From Blastocatellia bacterium (GTDB lineage Bacteria; Acidobacteriota; Blastocatellia; HR10), in assembly GCA_035573895.1 (NCBI GenBank), contig DATLZR010000006.1, forward strand, positions 1 to 40,213: a stretch of 40,213 nt of DNA, read 5' to 3'. Under the pieces are notes generated by a model. It was not told the DNA's origin. It worked only from the letters and a program-made list of their open reading frames with translations, and searched no databases. Shown one piece after another: positions 4,603 through 36,760 of the stretch; position 1 is the first letter of the stretch; each line of letters begins with the position of its first letter. Both the position numbers and the translations under genes were made by a program.

Positions 4603-4972
4603 AAGATCAGCGGTTTCCGCTCAATCGCGTGTCGTGCCCCGAAAGGGAGCACCGACGTTGCCCCTCGGTCCTCCTCCCTAGACGGGGGACCTCCTGTTCT
4701 CGTTGAGGGATCATTGCGCGGTTCTTCCCTGGTCTGGGGGAAATCACCCGACCGTTGAGTAAGGAATCTCACGCAGCTTCCCGCGTCAACCGATGTGCAA
4801 TGGTCAATCCCCCTCATTTTCCGTCACATAGACGATGATGCTTCCGCCCCAGAAGCTCGGCACGAAAGTTGCCCCTAACATAATGGATGATCTTAGGGCA
4901 CAAAACCAGGGCGGAGTGAAACCTCGTGGCTTTGCTCCTGCCCGGTCTTGGTGCCCGGGGGAGGATAATGCG
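4603..4972 (+). other. Intergenic stretch after cbs
   Basis: I find no supported gene in these 370 bases. Several short GC-rich inverted repeats occur (for example TTCCC and GGGAA flanking TGGTCTG near 4730), but none is followed by a T-tract, so I do not call a terminator. A reading frame continuous with the next gene reaches back to 4835 but lacks a ribosome binding site there. Confidence 0.4.
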
Positions 4973-5530
4973 ATGGCCGTCCTGACCTGGATCATTGGCC
5001 TCGGCTTAGCAGTCGTCATTGGGCTCTTGCTGCTCGTCAGGTATCGGCGCCTTCATGGTGTGCGCGTCATCACCTGTCCGGAGACGGAACAACCGGCGGC
5101 AGTGTGGATCCGCGCCTGGCGGGCCGTTATAACGAGCATCTTTGGCCGACCTGACTTTCGCTTGCAGGATTGTTCGCGGTGGCCCGAGAGGCGAGACTGC
5201 GGTCAAGCATGTTTGAGTCAAATTGCAGCAGCGCCTGAAGAGTGCTTAATCCGAACGATTCTCACCCGCTGGTACGCCGGGCGCCGTTGCGCTCTGTGCG
5301 GCAAAGACCTGACCGAAACTGATTGGCTTCATCACCGTCCCGCCGCGATGACAGCGGAGCGCGTGACTTTCGAGTGGAGCGAAATTGCCCCGGAGAAAAT
5401 CCTTCAAGCACTAGGGAGCTGCTTCCCCGTATGCTGGAACTGCCACATTGCCGAACAATTTCGCCGTCAGTTTCCCGATCTCATCACTGATCGCCCGTGG
5501 CCGCCGGGGACATCGCACCGTGCGATGTAG
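4973..5530 (+). CDS. Cys-rich hypothetical protein with one N-terminal membrane helix
   Basis: A protein of 185 residues from ATG 4973, chosen because a strong GGGGGAGGAT ribosome binding site precedes it by six bases. Residues 5-23 (WIIGLGLAVVIGLLLLV) form one transmembrane helix followed by RYRR, so the N terminus is probably outside and the body cytoplasmic. The body has many cysteines: one in VITCPETEQPAAVW, several in the middle, a CALCG motif, and a late CFPVCWNCH motif that could bind zinc or a cluster. I do not recognise a named family, and no function can be assigned. It precedes the NXR-like cluster but has its own start region. Confidence 0.65.
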   Translation: MAVLTWIIGLGLAVVIGLLLLVRYRRLHGVRVITCPETEQPAAVWIRAWRAVITSIFGRPDFRLQDCSRWPERRDCGQACLSQIAAAPEECLIRTILTRWYAGRRCALCGKDLTETDWLHHRPAAMTAERVTFEWSEIAPEKILQALGSCFPVCWNCHIAEQFRRQFPDLITDRPWPPGTSHRAM

Positions 5531-5816
5531 GTAAGCAGGTGCCCAAGGGTAACATCTGACCAGTGAAAGGCCGAACGACGTAGTTGAAACCGGAAAGGAA
5601 GTCTTGTGGGAGAATTTTCCCATAACCCGGTGGTGTGTGATTGAAGACCCGCTATCCCTATGCGCTGCCGTGTCCTGAAGTTTTTCGATTCCTGAAACTT
5701 ATCCTCACGGGCGGAAAGACCTGCGGATTTCGGCACGCCTCTTGCTTTCCTTCGGGCGATTGTACACATGCCCAGGAAAGCGTACAGAATGCGTCCTTTC
5801 TCTCGCCACCAGGGGG
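5531..5816 (+). other. DNA upstream of the truncated nxrA-like gene
   Basis: None of the three forward frames shows the missing N-terminal parts of the alpha subunit (Tat signal, first Fe-S ligand region, molybdopterin-binding loops). The frame of the fragment is open back to TTG 5742, and the segment read from about 5790 (VLSLATRGMEF) may still be homologous. A near-palindrome GGGAGAATTTTCCC lies around 5618-5631. No convincing promoter was seen. Confidence 0.4.
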
Positions 5817-7169
5817 ATGGAATTTCAATGTCTGGAGATAATGGCGTCATGTTCCAATCCCTTCCTGCAGATTTGGGGCAAGGGAGAGGGCATCAGGCCG
5901 CTCTATGACACCCGGGATGATCTCCGCATTATGACCGGTGTGGCCGAGAAGCTCGCCGATCTTACAGGGGATCAGCGTTTCCGCGACTACTGGAAATTCG
6001 CTCTCGAAGGCCGGGAGGAGGTATACATTGATTGGCTGCTGGACGGCTCGACGACGACCAGAGGATATACGACGCGCGACATCCTTGACGGGAAGTACGG
6101 GGAACCCGGAGCGGCCCTCATGCTCTTCCGAACCTATCCGCGCGTGCCTTTTTACGAACAGGACCACGATAGCATTCCCTTCTTCACTGATACTGGTCGG
6201 CTCAATGCCTACTGCGACATACCTGAAGCGATCGAATACGGTGAAAACTTCATCGTGCACCGCGAAGGACCCGAGGCGACGCCTTATCTGCCCAACGTCA
6301 TCGTCTCGAGCAATCCCTACATTCGTCCCGGTGACTACGGGATTCCCTCGACGGAGATGGACCCGGAAAAGCGGGCTGTTCGCAATATCAAGCTGCCGTG
6401 GTCGAAGGTGAAGCTGACCAAGAATCCCCTCTGGGAACAGGGCTTTCGCTTTTATTGCCTGACGCCCAAGACGCGCCATCGCGTCCATTCGCAGTGGAGC
6501 GTCTGCGACTGGAACCTGATCTGGGACTCCAATTTCGGCGATCCCTACCGGATGGACAAACGCACTCCGGGTGTGGGCGAGCATCAGATGCACATCAATC
6601 CTCAGGCCGCGAAGGACCTCGGCATCAACGATGGGGACTACGTGTGGGTGGATGCCAATCCCGTTGATCGTCCCTATGTGGGGTGGAAGCCGGATGATCC
6701 CTTCTACAAAGTGGCCCGGTGCATGGTTCGCGTCAAATACAATCCCGCTTACCCCTATCACGTCGTCATGATGAAACATGCGCCGTTCATTGCGACGGAG
6801 AAAAGCGTCAAAGCGCACGAGACCCGGCCCGACGGTCGAGCCCTGAGCGAAGACACCGGCTACCAGGCGAATTTCCGCTACGGCAGCCAGCAGTCAGTCA
6901 CGCGCGATTGGTTCATGCCTATGCACCAGACCGATAACCTCTTCCACAAGAAGAAAGTCGAAATGGGCTTCCTCTTCGGCGGCGAGGCCGATAATCACGG
7001 ACTCAACACCGTTCCCAAGGAGACTCTCGTGCGCATCGTCAAGGCGGAGCCCGGAGGCCCCGACGGGAAAGGCGTCTGGCCAGCGGCGACGACCGGCTTC
7101 ACGCCCGCTCAGGAGAACCCCGACATGCAACGGTATATTAACGGTGAGTTCGTGAGCGTCAAAACCTAA
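5817..7169 (+). pseudogene. nxrA: Nitrite oxidoreductase-like molybdopterin subunit (NxrA/NarG type), C-terminal part only
   Basis: About 450 residues matching the C-terminal part of type II DMSO-reductase-family alpha subunits of the Nitrospira/anammox NXR type, which normally exceed 1,100 residues. Recognisable segments include SCSNPFLQIWGKGEG, GRLNAYCDIPEAIEYGENF, EGPEATPYLPNVIVSSNPY, CLTPKTRHRVHSQWSVCDW, the HINPQAAKDLGINDGDYVWV molybdopterin-dinucleotide domain and ETRPDGRALSEDTGYQANFR. The Tat signal, the N-terminal Fe-S cluster and most of the Mo-bis-MGD site are missing. Possible starts are ATG 5817 or ATG 5841 (the latter after TGGAGAT). The remaining frame is clean, without stops or shifts, which suggests recent truncation, continued use as a fragment, or an assembly join. 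The beta subunit and chaperone genes downstream are intact. Confidence 0.75.
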
Positions 7170-7180
7170 CGGTGAAGAAA

Positions 7181-7561
7181 ATGAGCACACAGATCAACGA
7201 ACAAAAACCGACGAAGCAGCCCGAACCGGATGATCCGATGGAACTGGTGATGGTTCCCGTCCCCGGAGGAAATCCTGAACTGATGGCCACCTGCATCGTC
7301 GAGGAATACGCACTTCTGGGGATGGGAGAAGAGGAGATCTTTCGATTGTTCCGATCACCTTTATACCGGACTCACGCATTTTATCTGAGCTATGGTGAAG
7401 CGTGGGTGCGGACACTCATTCGCCGCGTGCTCCAGAGAACCGGACGATTCAGAGTCCGGATTGTGGAGTCACAACAGCCTGACGACCGCGAGGATAACTT
7501 GCGCATTCTGAAACCTGGGATTCCCAGTCGGCGATCTCACGAGGGAGGGAACCATGGCTAA
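7181..7561 (+). CDS. Small conserved-looking protein between the NXR-like alpha and beta genes
   Basis: A protein of 126 residues from ATG 7181 (GTG 7172 also in frame), 11 bases after the alpha-subunit stop, whose end overlaps the beta-subunit start by 8 bases. The tight packing says it is translated with the complex genes. The first 25 residues are polar and probably disordered. The core contains CIVEEYALLGMGEEEIFRLF followed by RSPLYRTHAFYLSYGEAWV and an Arg-rich helix. No signal peptide, membrane helix or cofactor motif is visible. I recall similar short proteins beside molybdo-enzyme genes but cannot name a family; an assembly factor or small subunit is possible. Confidence 0.7.
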   Translation: MSTQINEQKPTKQPEPDDPMELVMVPVPGGNPELMATCIVEEYALLGMGEEEIFRLFRSPLYRTHAFYLSYGEAWVRTLIRRVLQRTGRFRVRIVESQQPDDREDNLRILKPGIPSRRSHEGGNHG

Positions 7562-8864
7562 GGTCTACAACTGGCAAATTGGCCGAGAGATGCTCTATCC
7601 CTACGAGGAGAGCCACCCCCGGTGGCAGTTTGCCTTCGTCTTCAACACGAACCGATGCATTGCATGCCAAACCTGCAGTATGGCCTGTAAGGCGACGTGG
7701 ACCTTCTCGCGGGGCCAGGAGTACATGTGGTGGAACAACGTGGAGACCAAACCCTACGGAAGCTATCCTCACTTCTGGGATCAAAAGATTCTGGCGCTGC
7801 TTGAACGGGCGAACCCGGGGGGACAGGTATGGAACGTTCGTCGCAAACAGGACGGGCGTGCCCCCTACGGCGTCTTCGAGGGCAAGACAATTTTTGAAGC
7901 CATCTCTGAGGAACAGAACGAAGAGGGGGAGACGTTCCAGCAGACCTCCGGGCGGGTGCTCGGTTACCTGCCGAGCGATGAGGAATGGACGGCGCCTAAT
8001 CTCTACGAGGACACGGCCTGGCGTCCAGCCGACCAGCAGGCCCGCTGGGGTGGCACGGGTGTTTCCCTGCCGACGCACCGAACCTGGTTCTTCTATCTTC
8101 AGCGGCTCTGCAACCATTGCACGTACCCGGCTTGTCTGGCAGCCTGCCCGCGCCAGGCGATTTACAAGCGCCGCGAAGACGGCGTCGTTCTGATTGATCA
8201 AGAGCGCTGTCGCGGCTATCGCAAATGCGTGGAAGCCTGCCCGTACAAAAAGCCGATGTACCGTGCGACCACCCGCACATCGGAAAAGTGCATCGCCTGC
8301 TATCCGCGCCTGGAAGGCAGAGACACGGCAATTACTCCCGACGGTCAGCCCATCGAAACCCGGTGCATGTCCGTGTGCGTGGGAAAAATCCGAATGCAGG
8401 GACTCGTGAAGATCGGTAAAGATGGAACCTGGGAGAGAGACCCGGACAATCCCATCTACTACATGGTGCAGGAAGAGAAGATCGCCCTGCCGCTCTATCC
8501 TCAATTTGGCACTGAACCCAACGGCTTTTACATCCCTCCCCGTTGGGTGCCGATGAGCTATCTCGTCCAGATGTTCGGCCCCGGAGCCGCTCATGCCGTC
8601 GAAGCTTACGTCTGCCCATCCCGGCGCATGCTTGCGCTTCTGCAACTGTTCCGGGCGACGCGGGCCATCATTTTCCGATTCAAAGTTGAAGAGGGCAAAA
8701 AGATCGGCGAAAGCGAAGTTACTCTGCCCGACGGGCGAACGAGGACGCTGGAAATCTTCAACGATACAATCATCGGCTACGACCGGAAAGGGCGAGAAGT
8801 CGTCCGCCTGACGGTCGAGGAACCCTTCTATGAGCGACCCAGGGACTACTACAACAGCATCTAG
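7554..8864 (+). CDS. nxrB: Nitrite oxidoreductase-like iron-sulfur beta subunit (NxrB/NarH type)
   Basis: A 436-residue four-cluster ferredoxin-type subunit that would pass electrons between the Mo subunit and a membrane or soluble cytochrome. It starts MAKVYNWQIGREMLYPYEE, almost the same start as Nitrospira NxrB. Cluster ligands are seen at C35-C38-C41-C45 (CIACQTCSMAC), CNHCTYPACLAACP, CRGYRKCVEACP and CIACYP with CMSVC. The CRGYRKC motif has Tyr where NarH-type subunits carry a non-Cys residue, consistent with a 3Fe-4S site. There is no signal peptide, as expected if it is co-exported with a Tat-bearing alpha subunit. ATG 7554 follows GGAGGGAACC. Length is close to Nitrospira NxrB. Related chlorate, perchlorate, selenate and ethylbenzene enzymes share the fold, so the substrate is inferred. 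Confidence 0.88.
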   Translation: MAKVYNWQIGREMLYPYEESHPRWQFAFVFNTNRCIACQTCSMACKATWTFSRGQEYMWWNNVETKPYGSYPHFWDQKILALLERANPGGQVWNVRRKQDGRAPYGVFEGKTIFEAISEEQNEEGETFQQTSGRVLGYLPSDEEWTAPNLYEDTAWRPADQQARWGGTGVSLPTHRTWFFYLQRLCNHCTYPACLAACPRQAIYKRREDGVVLIDQERCRGYRKCVEACPYKKPMYRATTRTSEKCIACYPRLEGRDTAITPDGQPIETRCMSVCVGKIRMQGLVKIGKDGTWERDPDNPIYYMVQEEKIALPLYPQFGTEPNGFYIPPRWVPMSYLVQMFGPGAAHAVEAYVCPSRRMLALLQLFRATRAIIFRFKVEEGKKIGESEVTLPDGRTRTLEIFNDTIIGYDRKGREVVRLTVEEPFYERPRDYYNSI

Positions 8865-9687
8865 CGCCAGCACCGATCCATCCGGCGCCTGGGGTCTCGC
8901 CGGACCGGCCACGGCCGAAGAGGCACAGTTTGCAGGCGAAGCGACGTCGTTGCTCGCGCATCGGGATCTGTGGCTTCTGGTGAGCGTGGGTTTCGTGGAT
9001 CCTTACCATCGAGATCGCTTCGCTATGCTGACGGACGCAGCATTTCGACAACGGGTGATCGAAGCCGCAGCAGTCGTGGCCGATGAACATCCGAATGTCG
9101 AAATAGGCCCCGGCGAGAGATCGCCTCACGAGCTGTCGCCGGGTGCGCTATTTGCGCTCCTCGACAACGAGGCTCATCGTATCCAAGCCACCTATCGCCA
9201 GGTTTTCGGACTGACGGCAATTTCTCCAACTTGTCCTCCCTGCGAAACCGAATGGGAACCTAACACGGACATTTTCTACCGCTGTCAGCGACTGGCCGAC
9301 ATTGCGGGATTTTATCACGCCTTCGGACTGGAATTATCCCCCTCGTGCGGAGAGCGGCTCGATCACATCAGTGTGGAGGCCGAGTTCCTGTACGTTTTGC
9401 TGGCCAAGGAAGCGGCTGCTCTGGCCGATGGAGATCACGAAGCCGTGGACATCTGTCGGGATGCTCGACGAAAGTTCTTCCAGGAACACGTGGGATGGTG
9501 GGTGCCCGCTTTCGCTCGGAGCGTTGAACGTGTAGCGCCACCGGGCTACTATCGCCAGTTGGCGCAGTTCACAGCAGCCCTTTCGGCCGCCGAACGACTG
9601 AGCCTGACCTTGCCTCCCTTCACCGTACCGATGATTCCCCGGCCATCTTTGAATGAAGCACCGGTGGCCTGCGAGGAATGCGGATAG
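8830..9687 (+). CDS. TorD/NarJ-like molybdoenzyme assembly chaperone
   Basis: A protein of 285 residues overlapping the end of the beta-subunit gene by 35 bases. ATG 8830 has a GAGG ribosome binding site inside that gene. It is mostly helical. The segment RCQRLADIAGFYHAFGLEL followed by ERLDHISVEAEFLYVLLAKE matches the core of the TorD/DmsD/NarJ chaperone superfamily, which binds the alpha-subunit leader and helps insert the Mo cofactor before Tat export. A CPPCETEW stretch precedes the core, and the C terminus ends in CEECG, an unusual possible metal site. Its intact state next to a truncated alpha subunit is notable. Confidence 0.8.
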   Translation: MSDPGTTTTASSASTDPSGAWGLAGPATAEEAQFAGEATSLLAHRDLWLLVSVGFVDPYHRDRFAMLTDAAFRQRVIEAAAVVADEHPNVEIGPGERSPHELSPGALFALLDNEAHRIQATYRQVFGLTAISPTCPPCETEWEPNTDIFYRCQRLADIAGFYHAFGLELSPSCGERLDHISVEAEFLYVLLAKEAAALADGDHEAVDICRDARRKFFQEHVGWWVPAFARSVERVAPPGYYRQLAQFTAALSAAERLSLTLPPFTVPMIPRPSLNEAPVACEECG

Positions 9688-9761: not shown

Positions 9762-10223
9762 TCACACACCCGGAGATTCGAGTGCATTGGACCGCGCCTT
9801 CTCCTCGGCCAGCTCCTGTTCTAATTCTTCTTTGAGCTGCCGGAGCGTCCGACGCAACCAGTCGGCCACCGCTTTTTCCAACCGCTGTTGATCACCGGCC
9901 AACTCGAGCGATGCGACAGTTTCGCCGGCCTCGTTCAGCGGAATATAGTGACAGGGCACGTCAGCGTTCTTGTATTCGTCGGGCACAAAATTGAGCAGGA
10001 TGCATCCCTCACAGGTATCCGGGGGATGATCGGGATCAACCCAGTGGTTGATACAGGCAACCGAATACTGGAACATAGATTTCGGCTTCCAGGGATCAGC
10101 TTCGGTCAGGCGCGACCGCGGCGATCGTCCATAGCCGCCGGCTTCAATGATGCCCAGTTCGGTCTCCAGCAGGGCGATCATGTCTTCTTTAGTTTCGGCA
10201 TAAGATCGCGGATGAGCTACCAT
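9762..10223 (-). CDS. Hypothetical protein with Cys/His cluster, antisense to the surrounding redox genes
   Basis: A protein of 153 residues from ATG 10223, preceded by GGGAGGA seven bases upstream. After an N-terminal helix (SYAETKEDMIALLETELGII) there is a compact region with CINHWVDPDHPPDTCEGC and PCHYIPLNEAG that looks like a metal-binding knuckle, then a charged coiled-coil-like C terminus (LRQLKEELEQELAEEKAR). No signal or membrane segment is visible. It is transcribed against both the NXR-like genes and the cytochrome operon, so it is an independent unit. I do not recognise the family. Confidence 0.65.
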   Translation of the reverse strand: MVAHPRSYAETKEDMIALLETELGIIEAGGYGRSPRSRLTEADPWKPKSMFQYSVACINHWVDPDHPPDTCEGCILLNFVPDEYKNADVPCHYIPLNEAGETVASLELAGDQQRLEKAVADWLRRTLRQLKEELEQELAEEKARSNALESPGV

Positions 10224-11013
10224 GATGGCATCCTCCCTCTGTCATAGCGGCCCCGGGCAATGACGTACTCAGCGACGCCATTGCCATCGGTCCGAGCGAT
10301 GAGCGACATCACGCACTTGGCTGGTTTGTGTCTCACCCATCACCGTCACTATTGAGTGCAATTTATGTGCCGAACATCGGAGCCCTCACGCGGCGACGAA
10401 TAAGTCGAACAAGATCAGATGAGTACACTCACAGGACCGTGGAATGATCGTCTTCCTCGAGGGGATTTGGCCAACCCGGTGAGTCTTATCCCCCAGCCTT
10501 TTTGTGAGGATTTCACCGAAGGCGCTCAGAACGACCCGCTTTTGCCAGACCGTGAGCCTTAGCACGCCGGGCCATCGCGTTCTCTTCCTCAGAATCCCGG
10601 ACATCACCGAGAGTGATGCCCGCCGGGCACGATACTCCGCTGTGTGCCTTGCTCTCCCTCCCCAGTGGGCTGCCCTTTAGCGACACTCCGTATTCTGATT
10701 TTAGTCGCAGATTGGAAAGTCTCCGCCACTCGGTGAGGTTGGAGAGAGGTGCTTCAGGCAAACGCTGTAATCGTCCGGCTATGCCCCCTGCATGCCGAGG
10801 ATTCTCCCAGGTGGTCTTTCACGGGCCCTTTCTGTTGTGATAATCAACGGGCCGATTTCCGCTCAGGGTGTGTGAAATCACCCAGAGGGGACATTGGGTC
10901 CCTGGTGGTTTTTCTGGCGCAAACTGAAGTGAGACGGTAATATTGTGTGCAGAAAGAGTTAGAGACGGATCGCAGGAGGTGCTCGCCTGCGCTGGCTGGC
11001 ACGAAATTTGCAA
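10224..11013 (+). other. Long intergenic region before the cytochrome operon
   Basis: No gene can be supported in nearly 800 bases. Overlapping frames of 60-80 codons occur on both strands between 10386 and 10840 without ribosome binding sites or recognisable families. An AGGAGGT ribosome-binding-like sequence at 10974-10980 sits about 33 bases before the first usable ATG of the next gene, too far to serve it. The AT-rich GGTAATATTG near 10936 could be part of a promoter, but no -35 element fits well. Confidence 0.4.
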
Positions 11014-13098
11014 ATGCTTTCGGCTCGGATGTCAGCGACGATGACGAGGCTTCGCAGGTATGGAATTGTAGCGGTGCTTCTAATAAGCACGTACCCCGTG
11101 TCGGCTGGGCGCCCGCTTGCTTCTTCGCCGCAAAAGAAGATGGAGAGCGCCGACTGCATGGCCTGTCATGGGAACCGAGAACTCACCAAAGAGGTCCAGG
11201 GGCGCCAGGTAAGCGTCTACGTCAACGAAGAAGCACTTAAAGCATCGGTTCATGGCTTCCTCAACTGTGGCGACTGTCACTCAGACGTGAAGGATTATCC
11301 TCACGAACCCACTCCGCAAAAGGTATCTTGCGGCGAATGCCATTCGGAAGCCGTCGCTGCCTACCAGCAAAGCGTTCATGCCAAAGCTCAAGCTGAGGGG
11401 CGACAGCAGGCGGCAACCTGCCTTCAGTGTCACGGACCGGCCCATGAAATCCGATCCTCAAGCGACCCGGCCTCGAAAGTGTACCGCACGCACATTCCTC
11501 AAACGTGCGGCAGTTGTCACGGGGTGAAATTCGTCATGGAAGCCAGCGGTATCAGTGCCCGTCCGTTCTTCTCCTATCAGGAGAGTGTTCACGGGCGGGC
11601 GGTGGCCGCAGGATCGTTGAAAGCGGCTGTCTGCACGGATTGCCATCGAAGTCATGATATCCTCACAGCGGCAGATCCTCGATCTCCGATCTTCAAATTT
11701 AATGTGCCTGCGACCTGCGGTCAGTGCCACGAATCCATTGCGCGGGAATTCACCGAGAGCATTCATGGACAAGCGATACGTCGGGGCAACTGGCAGGCGC
11801 CGGTCTGTTCCGACTGTCATGGTATTCATCTGATCAAGCCGCACATTGATCCGACGGCTCCGGTGGCGGCGCAGGCGCTGGCGCGAACGACCTGTGGTCA
11901 ATGCCACGAAGGGGTGCGATTGTCTCAGGAATTCGGCGTCGCCTCCGGGCGCGTCTCCACATATCTGGATAGTTATCATGGGCTGGCGACCACGCTCGGC
12001 TCGAAAGTAGCCGCCAATTGCGCCAGTTGTCACGGCGTTCATAACATTCTTCCCTCCTCCGATCCGCGGTCAATGATCCATAAGGCGAACCTCGTCACGA
12101 CGTGCGGCAAGTGTCACCCCGGGGCGAGTGAAAACTTTGCCCGAGGCAATGTTCACGTCGGCGTGCCGGTCACTCAGGACATGGCCACGATTGTGAATCG
12201 GTGGGTTCGTCAGCTCTATCTCTGGCTGATCGTTGTGCTCATCGGTGGCATGATCATGCACAATGCCCTATTGTGGCGGCGAAAGGCACTTTTGATCCGT
12301 CAGCGGCAGGTTCGACCAATCGTGCGGATGAACACAGCTCAGCGTATTCAGCATCTCGTGTTGCTGACGAGCTTCTTCCTGCTCGTGCTCACGGGATTCG
12401 CCCTGAAGTATCCGGATTCGTGGCTGGCCTGGTTGCTTGGATCGAGCGAATCCTTCCGCCGCATCGGGCACCGCGTCGCTGGTGTCGTCTTGCTCGGGGT
12501 CGGGATCTATCACCTCATCTATATCGTGCGAACCCCTGACGGACGTCAGTTATTCCGGGACATGCGCCCGGTCGCCAGAGATATCTACGATCTCCTGGCC
12601 CAGATTCGGTTTGGACTCGGACGCACTTCGGCGCATCCGTCGTTCGGGCGCTTCGGCTACGCCGAGAAGGTTGAGTACTGGGCTGTGGTGTGGGGCATCC
12701 TGATTATGGGTGTGACCGGCTTGATGGTCTGGTTCAAAGTTCAAACCACAAGTATTCTCCCCCGATGGACGATTGATGTCGCCCTGACGATTCACTTCTA
12801 CGAAGCCGTACTGGCCACGCTGGCGATCTTCGTCTGGCATTTCTATCACGTCATCTTCGATCCCGATGTATACCCCATGAACTGGGCCTGGTGGGACGGT
12901 CGGGTATCGGCGGAATGGTATCAGAGGGAACACCGTGAGCATTATGAGACAATGATGGGGGCCCAGCAACAATCTCCTGAAGAGGAAGAACGCGAGGAAC
13001 CCGCTGCTGAGGCCGTTGGTACACCGAGTTCGATCACCGAGTCCCCCACCGACGGAGGGAGCCCCCATCCCCCTCCGTCTTGCGGGGGAGGTCCATAA
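11014..13098 (+). CDS. Eleven-heme cytochrome c fused to a b-type cytochrome membrane domain (CbcL-like)
   Basis: About 694 residues with two parts. After a signal peptide (core RRYGIVAVLLISTYPVSA) the periplasmic part, to about residue 390, has eleven CXXCH motifs, from CMACH to CGKCH. The rest contains about four transmembrane helices typical of formate dehydrogenase gamma/cytochrome b561-like domains, with His residues in RIQHLVLLT, RIGHRVAGVVLLGVGIYH and VWHFYHVIFDPDVYPMNWAWW that could hold two b hemes. The tail is Glu/Pro-rich. The design matches inner-membrane quinone-cytochrome enzymes such as Geobacter CbcL, so it should move electrons between quinol and periplasmic hemes. Starts at TTG 11008, ATG 11014, 11029 and 11041 are in frame; the last best fits the signal peptide. 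First gene of the electron-transfer operon. Confidence 0.85.
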   Translation: MLSARMSATMTRLRRYGIVAVLLISTYPVSAGRPLASSPQKKMESADCMACHGNRELTKEVQGRQVSVYVNEEALKASVHGFLNCGDCHSDVKDYPHEPTPQKVSCGECHSEAVAAYQQSVHAKAQAEGRQQAATCLQCHGPAHEIRSSSDPASKVYRTHIPQTCGSCHGVKFVMEASGISARPFFSYQESVHGRAVAAGSLKAAVCTDCHRSHDILTAADPRSPIFKFNVPATCGQCHESIAREFTESIHGQAIRRGNWQAPVCSDCHGIHLIKPHIDPTAPVAAQALARTTCGQCHEGVRLSQEFGVASGRVSTYLDSYHGLATTLGSKVAANCASCHGVHNILPSSDPRSMIHKANLVTTCGKCHPGASENFARGNVHVGVPVTQDMATIVNRWVRQLYLWLIVVLIGGMIMHNALLWRRKALLIRQRQVRPIVRMNTAQRIQHLVLLTSFFLLVLTGFALKYPDSWLAWLLGSSESFRRIGHRVAGVVLLGVGIYHLIYIVRTPDGRQLFRDMRPVARDIYDLLAQIRFGLGRTSAHPSFGRFGYAEKVEYWAVVWGILIMGVTGLMVWFKVQTTSILPRWTIDVALTIHFYEAVLATLAIFVWHFYHVIFDPDVYPMNWAWWDGRVSAEWYQREHREHYETMMGAQQQSPEEEEREEPAAEAVGTPSSITESPTDGGSPHPPPSCGGGP

Positions 13099-13282: not shown

Positions 13283-14731
13283 ATGGTGAAGCAGATCAAA
13301 ATTTGGTTTTGGGACATGATCCGGCTCTTTGGCCGGAACTGGATCACGGCTCTGGGGGCGGCATTGGCAACGGTGAGCGCCCTTCTCATTATCGCCTTTC
13401 TCATCCTTGGACTTCTGGGAAACGAGGAGACTCCTTACGTCGGAATCATGGCATTTTTGATCCTGCCCGCCGTGTTCGTCCTGGGACTCCTCGTTATCCC
13501 GGTTGGCGTGTACTGGGAACGAAAGCGCGCCGCTGGAAATCCGACGCCAAGGGATCCAGCGCAGATTTACCCGAAAATTGATTTCAGCCTCCCGCATGTT
13601 CGGCGGGCCGCCGGGTTGGTGACGTTCCTCACAGTGGTCAACCTGCTTCTGCTATCGCTGGTAACTTACGAAGGCGTTCAGTACATGGACTCGGTTCCCT
13701 TCTGCGGGCAGGTCTGTCACTCAGTGATGGAGCCGGAGTATACGGCCTACATTCGCTCACCTCACTCACGGGTCAAGTGCGTTGAGTGTCACATCGGACC
13801 CGGGGCCCCTTGGTTCGTGCGCTCGAAGCTGTCAGGTGTCGGGCAAGTTCTAGCCGTCGCCTTCAACACATACAACCGCCCGATTCCAACGCCGGTGGAG
13901 AACTTGCGGCCCTCACGCGATACGTGTGAGCAATGCCACTGGCCGGAAAAATTCACCGGAGATCGCATCAAGGTGATCACCAAGTTCGCCGATGATGAAG
14001 CCAATACGCCTCTGAAGACCGTTCTCCTCATGCACATCGGCGGGGGCGCCCAGGGCAGCGGGGGTATTCATAGCTGGCACATTGATCCTCGAAGGGAAAC
14101 CCGCTACATCGCCGCCGATCCCCAACGGCAGACTATCGCCTGGGTTCAAGTTCGGGAATCTGACGGGACGACCACCGAGTATACGGCCAGGGAGAATCCT
14201 CTCACTCCCGAGCAAATGGCACGAGCGGAAGTTCGCGTGATGGATTGCATTGATTGTCACAACCGACCCACCCACATCTTTCAGCATCCCGATCAGGGAA
14301 TGGATGATGCCCTGGCCAGCGGACGAATTGATCGTTCTCTCCCCTATATCAAGAAGGTGGGGACGGCTGCTCTCACCGAGGCGCGAGGGGAGAAATCAGC
14401 CGCCCTTCAAATGATCGCCCAGCGCATCCGCACCTTCTATCGAGAGAATTATCCATCTCTGGCAGAGAGTCGGCGGGACGCCATCGAAGCCGCCATCGGG
14501 GAGATACAGGCGATCTACAGCCGCAACGTTTTCCCACAGATGAACCTCACCTGGGGGACGTACCCGAATAATCTCGGTCACGAGCGATTCCCCGGATGTT
14601 TCCGCTGCCATGACGATGCTCACGTGAGCCGCGACGGAAAAGCCATCCGTCAGGATTGCAACATCTGTCATACGCTACTGGCAATCGAGGAGAAGGAACC
14701 CGAAGTGCTCAAACAGTTGGAGATTCGATGA
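13283..14731 (+). CDS. NapC/NirT-like membrane multiheme cytochrome c
   Basis: A protein of 482 residues from ATG 13283, well placed behind GGGGAGGAG. Three N-terminal hydrophobic segments (about 20-45, 53-75 and 110-130) precede the heme region, more than the single anchor of NapC. Heme sites are an unusual CGQVCH (two residues replaced by three) followed by SVMEPEYTAY, then CVECH, CEQCH, CIDCH, CFRCH and CNICH, so up to six hemes. The sequence after the first two sites (GPGAPWFVRSK) is typical of the NapC/NirT N-terminal domain. A role between the quinol-oxidising membrane cytochrome and the decaheme protein is likely. Its stop overlaps an ATG of the next gene (ATGA at 14728). Confidence 0.82.
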   Translation: MVKQIKIWFWDMIRLFGRNWITALGAALATVSALLIIAFLILGLLGNEETPYVGIMAFLILPAVFVLGLLVIPVGVYWERKRAAGNPTPRDPAQIYPKIDFSLPHVRRAAGLVTFLTVVNLLLLSLVTYEGVQYMDSVPFCGQVCHSVMEPEYTAYIRSPHSRVKCVECHIGPGAPWFVRSKLSGVGQVLAVAFNTYNRPIPTPVENLRPSRDTCEQCHWPEKFTGDRIKVITKFADDEANTPLKTVLLMHIGGGAQGSGGIHSWHIDPRRETRYIAADPQRQTIAWVQVRESDGTTTEYTARENPLTPEQMARAEVRVMDCIDCHNRPTHIFQHPDQGMDDALASGRIDRSLPYIKKVGTAALTEARGEKSAALQMIAQRIRTFYRENYPSLAESRRDAIEAAIGEIQAIYSRNVFPQMNLTWGTYPNNLGHERFPGCFRCHDDAHVSRDGKAIRQDCNICHTLLAIEEKEPEVLKQLEIR

Positions 14732-14790
14732 TCTCACCCGGACAAGTGAAGGGTTGCGCCGGGTGCAGTTGTTCTTACAGGGAGACAGGT

Positions 14791-15759
14791 ATGGAAAGAC
14801 GAACGACACTGTCCCAGATCATGGCCGGAGCTATCATCGCTGCCGTGGTTGCAGTGGCCCTGTTCCTGCTCACCGGGGTGGCCGTCAGTCAGAGCGAACG
14901 CGATGGAAGCAGAGGAGAGACCCACCAGGAACCACAGAAGGAAAGCGCCTATGTCGGAACGGAAGCGTGTAAGCTTTGCCATGAGGAGATTTCCAACCAC
15001 TTCGCGCAGACGGCGCACGCGATCACGCTCACCTCGGCGAAATATCCGGAAAGCGAACGTGGATGCGAGGCCTGCCATGGACCGGGGAAAGAGCACGTGG
15101 ACGGGGGCGGCGATGTCACCAAAATCTACGGCTTTCGCCATCGGCCCGTGAGCGAGATGAACAGCCGCTGCCTCAATTGTCACGAGCGACAGGAGGAACG
15201 TCACAACTATCGGCAGTCCGAGCACGGGCTCAACCAGGTAGCTTGCATTGATTGTCACTCGTCGCATGCCCCCCAGCGGATCGAGAATCTCCTGGTACGC
15301 CGTCCGCCCGACCTCTGTTACACCTGTCACGGTGAGATCCGCCAGGAGTTCTCCAAAACTTTCCATCATCGGGTTCCCGAAGGAGGACTTCAGTGTACCA
15401 CGTGTCACAATCAGCATGGCGGATTCAACGTCACACAAACGAGAGAAACAGCGGGGGGCACCGATCCTATCTGCTTGAAGTGCCATACGGATAAACAGGG
15501 ACCGTTTGTCTTCGAGCACGCACCCGTCAAGCTGGAAGGGTGCACGATCTGCCATACACCTCACGGTTCGACGAATCCCCGGCTTCTGAAGCGGCCGACG
15601 GTTCATCTGCTCTGCCTCGAATGCCACGCCGATACGCCGGGAATTTTGGGGCCTGAACCGCCGGCGTTTCATGATCTTCGCACGGCACGCTTTCAAAACT
15701 GCACGACCTGTCATGTGAAGATTCACGGGTCGAACGTCAACAGACTCTTTTTGCAATGA
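14791..15759 (+). CDS. DmsE/MtrA-family decaheme cytochrome c
   Basis: A protein of 322 residues from ATG 14791 behind GGGAGACAGGT. An in-frame ATG at 14728 overlaps the upstream stop but would bury the signal peptide. Residues 8-32 form the signal peptide or anchor (IMAGAIIAAVVAVALFLLTG). Ten CXXCH motifs follow: CKLCH, CEACH, CLNCH, CIDCH, CYTCH, CTTCH, CLKCH, CTICH, CLECH and CTTCH. The spacing and the CEACHGPGKEH and CTICHTPHGS context match the DmsE/MtrA group, which forms the heme wire inside an outer-membrane barrel. The gene directly downstream encodes such a barrel, which supports the assignment. Confidence 0.88.
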   Translation: MERRTTLSQIMAGAIIAAVVAVALFLLTGVAVSQSERDGSRGETHQEPQKESAYVGTEACKLCHEEISNHFAQTAHAITLTSAKYPESERGCEACHGPGKEHVDGGGDVTKIYGFRHRPVSEMNSRCLNCHERQEERHNYRQSEHGLNQVACIDCHSSHAPQRIENLLVRRPPDLCYTCHGEIRQEFSKTFHHRVPEGGLQCTTCHNQHGGFNVTQTRETAGGTDPICLKCHTDKQGPFVFEHAPVKLEGCTICHTPHGSTNPRLLKRPTVHLLCLECHADTPGILGPEPPAFHDLRTARFQNCTTCHVKIHGSNVNRLFLQ

Positions 15760-15826
15760 GTCGAAGAGAGAGGTGGGGATGAAGGCACACCTGTTAGTTC
15801 GCCAGTGGTTTTCGCGGGAGGATCCT

Positions 15827-17968
15827 ATGACGACGCACAAAATAACGCAGGCGAGCTTCACGGATCATCTGGAAGATATCCGAAGCGATGTCTCAAAGGC
15901 ATCAGATTTCGGCGACTGTGCCGGTGGGCGACGGCCCGGGCGAGCGTTCCGGCCCGTAAGCGTCCTGATCCTTCTGACCTGCGCACTGATGGCCGGCAGG
16001 CCGACGCTGGCTCAAGAACCAGCGTCTGCCAGCTCATCCCAGGGTCAAGCCCCCGCTGCCGAAGGAATTCGCTGGGGAGGAGTGGTTACGACCGGCAGCT
16101 TCACGATTGGCGGCCGTCACCTCTTCGCCGGGGGGAATCGCGATGTCTATCGGAGCCAGATTAATTTGGGCAACGGGTTTCGCCTGCTCGGCGTATCGGT
16201 TGAATCACGAGCCCCGGAAAATACCGGCCCGCTCTTTGACTTTCTAACCTACGAGATGGGGAACTGGGGCGATCCCTACAATGTCGCTCGGCTGCGGGTG
16301 GAAAAGCGCGGCATCTACCGGTTTGACGCAGGCTATAGTCGCATCGAGTACGTCCACTTCTTGCCGACATTCGCCAACCCTCTTCTCGGTCGGGGTGTGC
16401 TCTTTGGCCAGCATAGCTTCAATGCGTCCCGGCGACAATCGGGCTATTCGCTCACGCTCTTTCCTCAGCGCGATTTCAGCCTCCACTTCGGCTATGATCG
16501 CAACAGCCAGTTCGGCACGGCCTTTACGACGTTTTCCATCGGGCTCGATGAATTTCTTCTGCTCGATCCCGTGAGGACGACGACCGACGAATATCGCGTC
16601 GGCGCCGACCTCCGATTGAAGCGCGTTTTCCTCACGATTGAGCAAGGGTTTCGGGCGTTCAAGAACGACATCCACACGAATCAACCACCCGGGGCTCCGA
16701 ATCCGGGCAATAATCTCAGCCCGGCCAATCCAACGTCGCAAAATCCTCAACAGATTCTGCTCACGGGGCTCCTCCGGGGAAGCGCCATACGGGGATTCGT
16801 CCCGACGACACGACTGGCGTTGCACTCTCATCTCTTCCAGCCACTCTACGTCACCGGACGATTCGTCTACAGCGATGCCTCCATTGACTTCAATCGCAAT
16901 GAAGCGCTCGCCGGAGTGCTCTTTGATCGCACGGTGTTGCGCTATTTCACGGGGCAAACGTCGAGGAGCATCGCCGATGCTTCCCGACCCAATGCCGTCG
17001 CCGATGCCAGCGTGAACTATCGGCCGCATCGGCGGTGGACCTTCACCAATACGAGCCGATTTAACCACTTCGATATCGCCGGTGGCGTCTTCACGCAAAC
17101 GACGCAAACCCTGGGCTCCGACCTGCGAGGGAATCCGCCTCCTCCCAATCAACCACCGCGAGTCACGAGCGAGAGGCTCAGCGCCCGAACGTTCGTCAAT
17201 TCCTTTTTCAACCAGTTTGAGGGAATCGTGGAGATCGGCTCCCGGTTGACGCTTCGCGCCGGACATCGTTTCACGCACCGGCGTGTGGAACTGGTTCGTC
17301 CGGACGACCCCGCACCGGAAGAGTCCACACTCAATACCAATGCGTTTGTCGGGGGGCTGAGTTTGCGAGCGACCAACACGCTCCGCTTTTTTTCTCAGAT
17401 CGAGCGGGGGACGAGCGACAATGTCTTCACCCGCGTGGCAGCCTATCGCTTCACCCGATTGCGCATCCGCAGCGAATACCGACCGACCTCGACTGTGACC
17501 ATCAGCGGTCAGGCCCTGTTGACCGATTCCCGCAACCCGAATCCCTTCGTGGACAACCTCCGTCGTCACCGCGGGATGAACCTGACGGCAGCCTGGTTTC
17601 CCAGCGATCGCCTGAGTGTGACGTTGAGCTACTCGCGCACTGACGTGTCCTCACTGATCAATATCGTCAATCCCCGGTTCTTCACCGTCGAACGATCCGT
17701 TTACATCGCCAACGATAACTACCTGGACGGCGATATTGATCTCACGCCGGTGAAAAACCTCCGGCTAGCCGTCGGCTACAGCATCGTCAATGCGCAGGGC
17801 ACCTTCCCTCTGAATTTTCACCAGCCCCGGGCGCTCATCTCGTACAACTTCCCCCGACGCATTGTGTGGGCGCTCGGCTGGCGGTGGTACGGCTATAACG
17901 AAAAGGGGCTGGCACTGCAGGATTATCGTGCCCACACGCTCACGGCCAGCATGAAACTGAGCTTTTAG
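15827..17968 (+). CDS. MtrB/DmsF/PioB-like outer-membrane beta-barrel
   Basis: A protein of 713 residues from ATG 15827, chosen because GGGAGGATCCT precedes it; ATG 15779 is in frame but adds 16 residues ahead. A signal peptide core (PVSVLILLTCALMAG, cut near TLAQ) lies unusually deep, around residues 43-64. The mature part alternates polar and aromatic residues throughout (for example FDAGYSRIEYVHF and SLHFGYDRNSQFGTAF), with many Arg/Tyr pairs as in long-strand barrels, and ends in MKLSF with the terminal Phe required by the BAM machinery. It would sheath the decaheme cytochrome encoded 67 bases upstream to form a porin-cytochrome complex. No surface cytochrome or lipoprotein gene follows in this window. 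Confidence 0.8.
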   Translation: MTTHKITQASFTDHLEDIRSDVSKASDFGDCAGGRRPGRAFRPVSVLILLTCALMAGRPTLAQEPASASSSQGQAPAAEGIRWGGVVTTGSFTIGGRHLFAGGNRDVYRSQINLGNGFRLLGVSVESRAPENTGPLFDFLTYEMGNWGDPYNVARLRVEKRGIYRFDAGYSRIEYVHFLPTFANPLLGRGVLFGQHSFNASRRQSGYSLTLFPQRDFSLHFGYDRNSQFGTAFTTFSIGLDEFLLLDPVRTTTDEYRVGADLRLKRVFLTIEQGFRAFKNDIHTNQPPGAPNPGNNLSPANPTSQNPQQILLTGLLRGSAIRGFVPTTRLALHSHLFQPLYVTGRFVYSDASIDFNRNEALAGVLFDRTVLRYFTGQTSRSIADASRPNAVADASVNYRPHRRWTFTNTSRFNHFDIAGGVFTQTTQTLGSDLRGNPPPPNQPPRVTSERLSARTFVNSFFNQFEGIVEIGSRLTLRAGHRFTHRRVELVRPDDPAPEESTLNTNAFVGGLSLRATNTLRFFSQIERGTSDNVFTRVAAYRFTRLRIRSEYRPTSTVTISGQALLTDSRNPNPFVDNLRRHRGMNLTAAWFPSDRLSVTLSYSRTDVSSLINIVNPRFFTVERSVYIANDNYLDGDIDLTPVKNLRLAVGYSIVNAQGTFPLNFHQPRALISYNFPRRIVWALGWRWYGYNEKGLALQDYRAHTLTASMKLSF

Positions 17969-28356: not shown

Positions 28357-29301
28357 ATGAGCACAAAGCCCTACGATCAGGCGTTCAAGTATCTGGCCGA
28401 GCAAGATGCCGAGGCGCTGATGTTGCTTTTGGGTGAACTGGCACCAGGCCAGCAGGCGAAGATTGCGTTACTGCCGCGCGAAATTAGCGTTGCCGCCCAG
28501 TTGCCCGATCAGCCCTATGAAGTGGCCACAGCCGAAGGCCGTCGGCTGGTGCACGTAGAGGCGCAGACTGTCTATGACAGCTCGCTACCCGATCGGATGC
28601 TGGACTATGGATTGCGTCTCTGGTTGAAGTACCGACTGCCTCTCAGCAGCTATGTGCTGGTGCTGACTCCGCGTGGAATGCCCCGCAAGCTAAGGCTCGG
28701 ACGTCGGGTGGAGGCAGGAGATCTGCAGATTAATTTGCGCTGTCGGCTGGTATGCCTGTGGCGAGTGTCGGGCCAGAAAGTTCTGGCGTGGAATCGCCCG
28801 AGCCTTCTGCCGTTCTTGCCACTCATGCGGGGTGGGTGGAAGGTGGTTCGCTCCGGGGCCCAGCACCTGAGAGAGATACCCGACGAGCGGCAGCGGTGTG
28901 AGCTAGGCTTGCACTTTCTGCTGCTGGGGGGACTCCGCTATGATAAAACTGAACTTATCGAACTGATCGGGAGGGAGAGCATGATACCGTTAGAACAACT
29001 GAAAGAGTCGAGCATGTATCAGTTCATCGTGGAAGAAGGGCTCCAGCAAGGGCTTCAGCAGGGGCTTCAGCAGGGGCTCCAGCAGGGGCTTCAGCAGGGG
29101 CTCCAGCAAGGGCTTCAGCAGGGGCTTCAGCAGGGACTTCGCCAGGAGGCGATGACGCTACTCCGGCGACTACTGGAACGTCGGTTCGGGTCGTTGCCGG
29201 AATGGGTTCAGCAGAAGATTGAAGTCGCCGATCAGACGACGCTCGAAGAGTGGGTCCTGCGAGTACCAGAAGCTCGATCCCTCGAAGAAGTTTTCCAGTA
29301 G
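28357..29301 (+). CDS. Rpn/PD-(D/E)XK transposase-like protein with GLQQ repeat and DUF4351 tail
   Basis: A protein of 314 residues. The N-terminal part (MSTKPYDQAFKYLAEQD, then RRLVHVEAQTVYDSSLPDRML and YGLRLWLKYRLP) looks like the Rpn/PDDEXK_2 nuclease-transposase family, with ExQ in the usual catalytic ExK/ExQ place. Residues 228-263 are nine GLQQ-type tetrapeptides likely to form a helix. The C terminus (ALTLLRRLLERRFG-like, residues about 266-310) resembles DUF4351. Rpn relatives nick DNA and promote recA-independent recombination. Such genes are often horizontally moved and vary in repeat number between strains. It stands alone between gmhA and efp. Confidence 0.75.
   Translation: MSTKPYDQAFKYLAEQDAEALMLLLGELAPGQQAKIALLPREISVAAQLPDQPYEVATAEGRRLVHVEAQTVYDSSLPDRMLDYGLRLWLKYRLPLSSYVLVLTPRGMPRKLRLGRRVEAGDLQINLRCRLVCLWRVSGQKVLAWNRPSLLPFLPLMRGGWKVVRSGAQHLREIPDERQRCELGLHFLLLGGLRYDKTELIELIGRESMIPLEQLKESSMYQFIVEEGLQQGLQQGLQQGLQQGLQQGLQQGLQQGLQQGLRQEAMTLLRRLLERRFGSLPEWVQQKIEVADQTTLEEWVLRVPEARSLEEVFQ
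29038..29145 (+). repeat. 12-bp in-frame tandem repeat (GLQQ x 8 plus GLRQ)
   Basis: Nine consecutive 12-base units of the form GG(G/A)-CT(C/T)-C(A/G)(G/C)-CA(A/G) fill 108 bases. Only third-position changes separate the first eight; the ninth codes for Arg. The near identity favours slippage, and unit gain or loss would keep the frame. Confidence 0.95.
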
Positions 29302-35214: not shown

Positions 35215-36753
35215 ATGGACCGCTATTTCCAGATCTCTCACTACCTTGACGAGCTTGCCGAGCGGAATCTCCCAGCGAACGAGCTGGAAGGAAAAATTCG
35301 AGAACTCCTCGAACAAATTCGACCCGACCAACCGACGCTCGTCCCCATCCTGCTGAACAAACTGAAACGGACGGAAAACCCCGCTGTTGCTTCTATCGTT
35401 GGATTCGCCCTTCGACAACTGAATGATCCCTCCATTTATGACGCAGTTGTCGCTTTGCTTCACGACCCAACCGTGCGCGATGAGGTGAAGATGAACCTCA
35501 TCTCGGTATTCGTTCACTATGGCGGGGATGTCAACACTCTCGATGTGAACCGAGTGTTCAAGCGCCCGCCATCTTCCTATCGCATGGCGGTCGGCCAGTT
35601 GCTGGATGCCATAGCCGAGGATGAGAATGTCATTGGTCTTTTCCTGGATAGCTTCGCCCAACTTCCCAAAGCGATGCAGATCGGGTCGGTGCAGGGATTC
35701 GGATCTCTCAACGATGAACGGGCGCTGAAGTTGCTGGCGACGCTGGCCGAATACTGGGATCGTGAAGTGGCCCGGGCTGCCATTGAGGCCATTGGTTCGA
35801 TCAAATCAGGGAAGTCCCTGACGGTTCTGGAGAACCTCTTCAACCATCGAGAATCTGCCTGGGGACTCATCGAGAAGTCCATCCGGAAGTTGAGGAGGGA
35901 GGGATTGAGTCCCGAGTCTCTTGATCCTCCGCCCGCCCCTGTACGAGAGTGTCTGGTGACACCATCCGATGGACGCGGAAGCTCGATTCTCATCATTAGC
36001 CGAAAGGATGGTCCACGACGGTATGACACCCATCTTTTCATGCTCAACGAGCGGGTGGGGATCAAGGATTGTTATGGCATGCGGCGAACTTCCCCGAAGC
36101 AGTATCGTGAGATGATCGGCGCCCTCGATTGCGAAATCGGCCTGTACTCCATCCCTTACGAGTATGCGGTAACACTCATTCGCGATGCGTTATTTGTGGC
36201 GCGATCACATCGTGCGCTCATCTCGCCGGAATTCGCCTTCCACCGGCGTGTGTTCGGAACCGACGAGTTGACGCCGCTCCAGCATGTCCCCGCCTTCCCG
36301 GAGATTCTCGTGGCCCGTGCCCGCCGGAATCTCGACCGCCTTCTGGCGTCTTCGGATTATCTCGTTGATGAATCCCCCTTCGATAATTGGTGGCTGGATA
36401 TACCTCAAGCCTATGCCTTCTTCACCCGATTCAAGGCTCGCCGAAAAAATCGCTCGCCGGACCAGGCGGTGCTCACCGCATTTATCAACGATGTGATTGA
36501 GCCGGAGCGGACTCTCCTGATTCGCCGCCTGGGATTGACCGTTGAACTGCTGGCGAAATTCGACTCCACTTATCCTCCGGCCATCCTCCAAACAGCCCTG
36601 GCATTATGGATCGCCCTTCAGGATGAGAGTCGGCCGCTGGCGTCAATTCCTTTCTTTCAGGCACTTGCCGAACTCACCAGCGAGATGGTTCTCAACAATA
36701 TTGCCCTGGGTTATCGTGAGCCGGACGGATTTCTCCCCGAACACTATCAGTGA
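35215..36753 (+). CDS. HEAT-repeat-like hypothetical protein
   Basis: A protein of 512 residues from ATG 35215, chosen for AGGAG seven bases upstream; the frame stays open to 35047 but reads as non-protein there. Residues about 1-235 are paired helices resembling HEAT/armadillo units, for example [40 protein letters not shown] and [20 protein letters not shown]. The remaining 270 residues look globular ([20 protein letters not shown], then long helices) and match no family I know. There is no signal peptide or membrane helix. It ends eight bases before the dcd start, so the two are probably one operon. A protein-binding scaffold role is the most that can be inferred. Confidence 0.7.
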
Positions 36754-36760
36754 ATGGCCT

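Follow-up and report, generated by a model that had tools for sequence, protein, structure and literature searches.

A cbcL-type multiheme cytochrome gene followed by imcH-like, mtrA-type and mtrB-type genes in a Blastocatellia bacterium

CbcL of Geobacter sulfurreducens (GSU0274) is described as an inner-membrane quinol oxidase in which an N-terminal multiheme c-type domain, with nine c hemes (PMC9129911), is placed on a b-type domain resembling HydC and FdnI. Which of CbcL and ImcH is used in Geobacter depends on the potential of the extracellular acceptor: ImcH serves at potentials higher than about -0.1 V, CbcL at lower ones (PMC12307469). A 2018 survey of the CbcL/MtoC/MtrH family counted 138 homologues in 15 phyla, with 3-23 motifs (PMC6295460). 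As it describes them, the members have an N-terminal cluster of CX2CH motifs, a HydC/FdnI-like C-terminal domain, lengths of 416-1034 aa, six helices in most cases and five or four in some, and three conserved histidines. MtrH of Rhodoferax ferrireducens and MtoC of Dechloromonas and Gallionella belong to the same family, and their genes are clustered with mtrAB or mtoAB. Two cymA genes stand beside mtrH in R. ferrireducens, and CymA is also described as the usual quinol dehydrogenase in Shewanella, whereas the locus described here encodes CbcL and ImcH types with the conduit, the ImcH-like protein being the putative second quinol oxidase. Homologues of CbcL and ImcH have consecutive accessions in Desulfuromonas acetexigens (TRO80642.1 and TRO80643.1) and nearby locus tags in Desulfuromonas soudanensis (DSOUD_0207 and DSOUD_0214), which suggests clustered genes in both. 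The accounts of these homologues that we consulted mention no neighbouring mtrAB, unlike the locus in the window, by which we mean the whole 40,213-nucleotide stretch of an uncultured bacterium analysed here.

A cbcL/mtoC/mtrH-type gene (11014..13098, + strand) encodes an 11-heme c-type domain fused to a b-type membrane domain. Its frame (11014-13095) runs without interruption for 694 aa and 11 CXXCH motifs to a stop codon at 13096-13098, while the reverse strand contains stops in the same register. An earlier reading of this DNA from the sequence only had put the eleven motifs and the membrane domain in one chain, and the single open frame agrees. No frameshift was found between the two domains, and an origin of the protein as a frameshift artifact or chimera is ruled out by the recurrence of the intact fusion, with 95 full-length homologous frames spread over 91 of 94 loci in a sample biased to close relatives (best 80 of 116 relatives from the genome_contigs scan). 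The best 80 of the 116 loci come mostly from Acidobacteriota, with a few from Verrucomicrobia, Gemmatimonadota, Ignavibacteria and Zixibacteria. Matches to the cbcL-type protein at E <= 0.001 occur in 26 of 39 genomes, its own included, many of them spanning the c-type domain alone.

The c-type domain (residues 48-381; 11155..12156, + strand) contains the eleven CXXCH motifs and eleven candidate distal histidines (H80, H97, H122, H144, H193, H214, H251, H272, H322, H343 and H381). Motifs 6-11 are each kept in all 95 homologous frames, and motifs 1-5 in 88, 94, 89, 90 and 91 of them. Conservation of the candidate distal histidines is 85% for H97 and 93-100% for the other ten, so that bis-histidine ligation is possible for each of the eleven c hemes. 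Against solved structures, the modelled domain resembles hydroxylamine oxidoreductases and MtrA with Z near 8-9, which supports a predicted multiheme c-type domain but is too weak for anything finer. The sequence-only reading gave Geobacter CbcL nine hemes, fewer than in the protein encoded here, and the published nine c hemes (PMC9129911) against eleven motifs here confirm this as a comparison of published family features. The number itself does not set the protein apart. Eleven is the commonest count in the sample biased to close relatives (69 of 95 fusions), followed by 13 in 11, nine in 9 and 19 in 2, with 7, 10, 16 and 21 in one each, and since the published range is 3-23 we regard eleven motifs as ordinary.

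The b-type membrane domain (12181..13008, + strand) consists of an extra helix with H416 and a four-helix, FdnI-like core with H447, H486, H500, H594 and H609. This C-terminal part matches PF01292 (47.6 bits, cut-off 30.1) and, by sequence, E. coli FdnI (1kqf_C, 6.1e-9). The protein has five hydrophobic segments, and in its AlphaFold model (58 sequences, pLDDT 86.5) the C-terminal part contains five long helices. FdnI is the best solved match of the model (Z 16.9, 208 aligned, rmsd 2.9) and the sole Foldseek match under 0.001. All six membrane-domain histidines are present in 95 of 95 homologous frames, so the alignment on which the absence of ligands would have appeared bears out the proposed heme-binding domain. 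Four of them (H447, H486, H594 and H609) align with His 18, 57, 155 and 169 of 1kqf_C in helices I, II, IV and IV, which we take to be the b-heme ligands of FdnI. The proposal of a four-helix b domain with paired histidines therefore stands for the core and for the modelled fold, and has to be amended to five helices in total, one of them before the core.

Six invariant membrane histidines, where two b hemes need four, would allow a third b heme on sequence grounds. If H416 of the extra helix paired with H500 of helix II in the cytoplasmic half, the protein would be a fourteen-heme quinol oxidase sharing one row and conduit with ImcH, and a single transcript would act as a two-potential switch for extracellular respiration; we consider this improbable. 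On such a pairing H500 should disappear where the extra helix is absent. This co-occurrence was counted over complete domains, incomplete fragments and one domain in which the helix aligns without H416 and H447 (L141) being set aside. The expected loss was not seen, H500 being kept in 20 of 22 complete domains lacking the helix, and the H416-H500 pairing is therefore unsupported. A tie between H500 and the extra helix, hinted at by two loci (L139 and L140), thus did not hold across the 22 helix-less domains. Nor is an exchange of H500 for a histidine at position 614 exclusive: H416 and H500 occur in 46 of 46 complete helix-bearing domains, and 16 of these also have H614. Among the unfused four-helix relatives of the b-type domain in genomes of the same phylum (L175-L193), an extra histidine at the position of residue 614 of the protein described here is found in 18 of 22 complete helix-less domains.

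The 11 motifs and 694 aa fall inside the ranges of the CbcL/MtoC/MtrH family (3-23 motifs, 416-1034 aa). A HydC/FdnI-like domain with conserved histidines is likewise present (PF01292, FdnI at Z 16.9, six invariant histidines), and the five helices lie inside the published spread, against six stated for Geobacter CbcL. Its predicted sequence features place the gene product, encoded in an Acidobacteriota genome, among the CbcL/MtoC/MtrH-type quinol oxidoreductases, and as far as published family features go (PMC6295460, PMC9129911) the likeness to CbcL proposed from the letters holds. Taken alone, the protein is ordinary for the family. A quick tree of 96 rows groups it with four proteins from the same taxonomic family (SH-aLRT 93, not starred).

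The three genes that follow set the locus apart. Starting 184 bases after the cbcL stop codon, an imcH-like gene (13283..14731, + strand) encodes three N-terminal helices (residues 27-45, 54-72 and 106-124), a CX3CH motif (CGQVCH at 141) and five CX2CH motifs. Three N-terminal helices, an adjoining atypical CX3CH and 5-9 CX2CH are the published hallmark of ImcH, and the protein has each of these features; the helices and the CX3CH plus CX2CH arrangement are those of ImcH from Geobacter and Acidobacteria. The CX3CH is kept in 46 of 46 frames related to the imcH-like gene that score over 200 bits. The NrfH model TIGR03153 gives 53.8 bits on 13283-14731, below its cut-off of 134.2. A cytochrome gene does adjoin cbcL, as had been noted, but "NapC-like" is better replaced by ImcH-like. 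Next is an MtrA/DmsE-type periplasmic decaheme (14728..15759, + strand) with ten CXXCH motifs, which scores 253.5 bits on TIGR03508 (cut-off 192.2) and matches chain A of the Mtr complex (6r2q_A) at 4.5e-36; its first ATG overlaps the imcH stop codon, and the open frame begins earlier.

The last gene (15773..17968, + strand) encodes a predicted MtrB-type outer-membrane barrel, and its frame can start 13-19 bases 3' of mtrA. The Pfam family MtrB_PioB stays below its gathering cut-off of 23 (18.4 and 18.9 bits), and a sequence-profile search of solved structures gave nothing relevant for the barrel, so a fold search was used. The model (six sequences, pLDDT 65) has 26 long strands, and the first match is 6r2q_B (Z 25.3, 542 aligned, rmsd 4.2, TM 0.69; next match 15.9). 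MtrB of Shewanella presumably has 26 strands as well. The modelled arrangement resembles the MtrCAB/DmsEF conduit of Shewanella, in which a decaheme sits inside a 26-strand barrel. The row itself is without MtrC. An OmcA/MtrC decaheme is encoded elsewhere in the genome (G000:C24:19891-21912; TIGR03507, 511.9 bits, cut-off 209.3), and the 31 kb read around it contain no further part of the cbcL row. With the ImcH-like, MtrA/DmsE and MtrB-type genes following cbcL, sequence and models support a row that pairs both predicted Geobacter quinol-oxidase types with one putative outer-membrane conduit.

The four-gene order cbcL-imcH-mtrA-mtrB is also found in three related genomes (G001, G002 and G003), and cbcL-imcH-mtrA runs up to the contig end in a fourth (G004); in these genomes cbcL and imcH either overlap or lie almost end to end. 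An imcH-like gene is directly adjacent on the same strand in 32 of 81 named fusions and in 7 of 14 fusions of relatives. An mtrAB pair lies within the locus of 6 of the 81 (all six with an adjacent imcH) and of 9 of the 14. An imcH-like gene is not adjacent in 49 of the 81 (in 7 of these the downstream sequence is short); the neighbour profiles were seeded from the window, so that distant versions could escape detection, and some neighbourhoods are truncated where a locus ends. On the tree, six changes account for the imcH-adjacency label, where shuffled labels average near 29.5; this count excludes 7 rows whose downstream sequence is short. In one locus mtrC is inside the row (L108, cbcL-mtrC-imcH-mtrA-mtrB), and in a named MAG cbcL, imcH, mtrC, mtrA and mtrB are all in one locus (L059). 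Terriglobia loci lacking imcH (L038, L036, L041 and others) contain a separate protein of ~410-530 aa with eleven CXXCH motifs, weakly decaheme-like and often encoded just upstream of cbcL.

A sigma-54 (-24/-12) promoter element with 0 mismatches, TGGCACGAAATTTGC (10997..11011, + strand), precedes the cbcL-type gene. The window holds 4 sigma-54 sites with <=1 mismatch, against a chance mean of 0.79. All 4 of the loci from the same family carry an element with one mismatch at the corresponding place, with a likely signal-peptide start ~25 bases on. Since the element ends at 11011 and the signal peptides of relatives begin at that distance, the true start of cbcL is likely ATG 11041. Beyond the family, a site with <=1 mismatch was found in 1 of 87 other upstream stretches; the reverse strand, with the family loci included, gave 0 of 91, and four of the 95 fusions were dropped from this comparison for short upstream sequence. 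The genome encodes RpoN, and a count over six genomes of the family gives 45 occurrences of the pattern and 11 of the same pattern reversed. With the element 5' of the gene, conserved in the family, and RpoN in the genome, the cbcL-type gene has a predicted sigma-54 promoter. Neither a sigma-70-like nor a sigma-54-like site was found in the gap between cbcL and imcH. Two more one-mismatch sigma-54-like elements (+ strand) lie at 4858-4872, before the frame at 4970, and at 5731-5745, before a truncated alpha-subunit gene.

From the gene content and order, the motifs, the predicted folds and their conservation, we infer with good confidence that cbcL-imcH-mtrA-mtrB forms a sigma-54-driven, presumably co-transcribed row for two parallel quinol oxidases loading one MtrA-in-MtrB conduit, with OmcA/MtrC passing electrons outward. 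The FdnI-like domain of the CbcL-type protein would oxidise quinol at the inner membrane; electrons would cross via the b hemes to the periplasmic side, exit via eleven bis-histidine c hemes and reach MtrA inside MtrB directly or by a carrier. The ImcH-like protein would be a second, parallel quinol oxidase using c hemes alone and the same conduit, and the OmcA/MtrC decaheme may hand electrons to an extracellular acceptor, e.g. Fe(III)/Mn(IV) oxide or humics. Because the neighbour is ImcH-like, the "two routes, different potentials" of the sequence-only reading corresponds to the CbcL/ImcH pair of Geobacter. The two oxidase types hold by gene identity, and a division between them by acceptor potential in this genome is transferred by homology, and would be expected if they differ as in Geobacter.

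Electrons might instead flow inward, from a donor outside the cell, for instance Fe(II), through MtrCAB to quinone, as proposed for MtoC. Family members are found in Fe(II) oxidisers, and since the survey reports no feature by which quinol oxidases and quinone reductases can be told apart (PMC6295460), the direction is unreadable from sequence. ImcH homologues, however, are implicated in the published accounts in quinol oxidation only, and RuBisCO has 0 matches in the genome, RuBisCO being one carbon-fixation route among others. By gene content, the ImcH partner and the RuBisCO absence lean towards outward flow, and we regard the reverse as unlikely. Slightly less likely still is a single complex of the CbcL-like and ImcH-like proteins in place of two alternative routes: against the direct adjacency and near-overlap of their genes in many genomes stand the separate membrane domain of each protein and the finding that Geobacter CbcL and ImcH are separate quinol oxidases with different potential ranges (PMC12307469).

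Least likely of all, and in our view very doubtful, is a single respiratory module in which the cytochromes serve the nitrate-reductase/nitrite-oxidoreductase-like genes upstream (5742-9687). Those genes are on the same strand as cbcL and under 2 kb away, their beta and chaperone products match type II DMSO reductase family models, and sigma-54-like sites precede both units. Yet a gene on the opposite strand and a separate sigma-54 site intervene, the alpha gene is the C-terminal part alone where relatives' proteins mostly have 1150-1170 aa, and no second alpha copy was found in the genome. The wider neighbourhoods argue the same way: no narG_C hit lies near cbcL in any of the 14 loci from relatives, narH and narJ match weakly in one of them only (L110), and 5 of 6 alpha-plus-beta loci have no ORF with at least 3 CXXCH in the fetched stretch, the sixth having a five-motif ORF.

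Parallel quinol oxidases feeding one conduit thus remain our preferred reading, and what appears new is the arrangement only, imcH between cbcL and mtrAB; the protein family was already surveyed, and closeness of cbcL and imcH was already indicated in Desulfuromonas. This assessment rests on the survey, which reports no adjacent mtrAB or mtoAB for imcH (PMC6295460) where mtrA and mtrB here lie directly 3' of it, and on a literature search that found no open-access paper on a cbcL-imcH-mtrAB cluster in Acidobacteriota, with subscription journals and preprints outside its scope. The parts are of known kinds, but both feeders and the wire in one row are unusual, and their division of labour is testable. 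Both oxidase types beside one MtrAB conduit would let competition for one wire be asked, and the recurrence of the CbcL/ImcH pair in Acidobacteriota suggests dual-potential extracellular respiration in the phylum.

Several other genes in the window were noted. The alpha-subunit gene upstream (5742-7169, + strand) is nitrate reductase/nitrite oxidoreductase-like; its relatives have 63-74% identity, are mostly 1150-1250-aa frames and all occur in other families of the phylum. Its truncation reflects deletion, decay or an assembly fault. It is followed (7172-9687, + strand) by a 129-aa frame, a NarH/NxrB-like four-cluster iron-sulfur subunit and a NarJ/TorD-like chaperone, an order from alpha onwards that is also seen in six intact loci. 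A conserved 153-aa protein matching no family (9762-10223, - strand) has homologues in 18 of 94 cbcL loci and directly before mtrC in L104-L107. A cysteine-rich protein with an N-terminal hydrophobic stretch and no Pfam match (4970-5529, + strand) has homologues near cbcL in two loci (L108 and L111), and a sigma-54-like site precedes the L108 copy. Further downstream, a frame at 28357-29301 (+ strand) has a QQGLQQGL repeat run and then a DUF4351-like end (24.7 bits, cut-off 25), and a dCTP deaminase gene (36542-38431, + strand) is split by an intein with a LAGLIDADG domain, with PF14890 and PF14528 both above their cut-offs.
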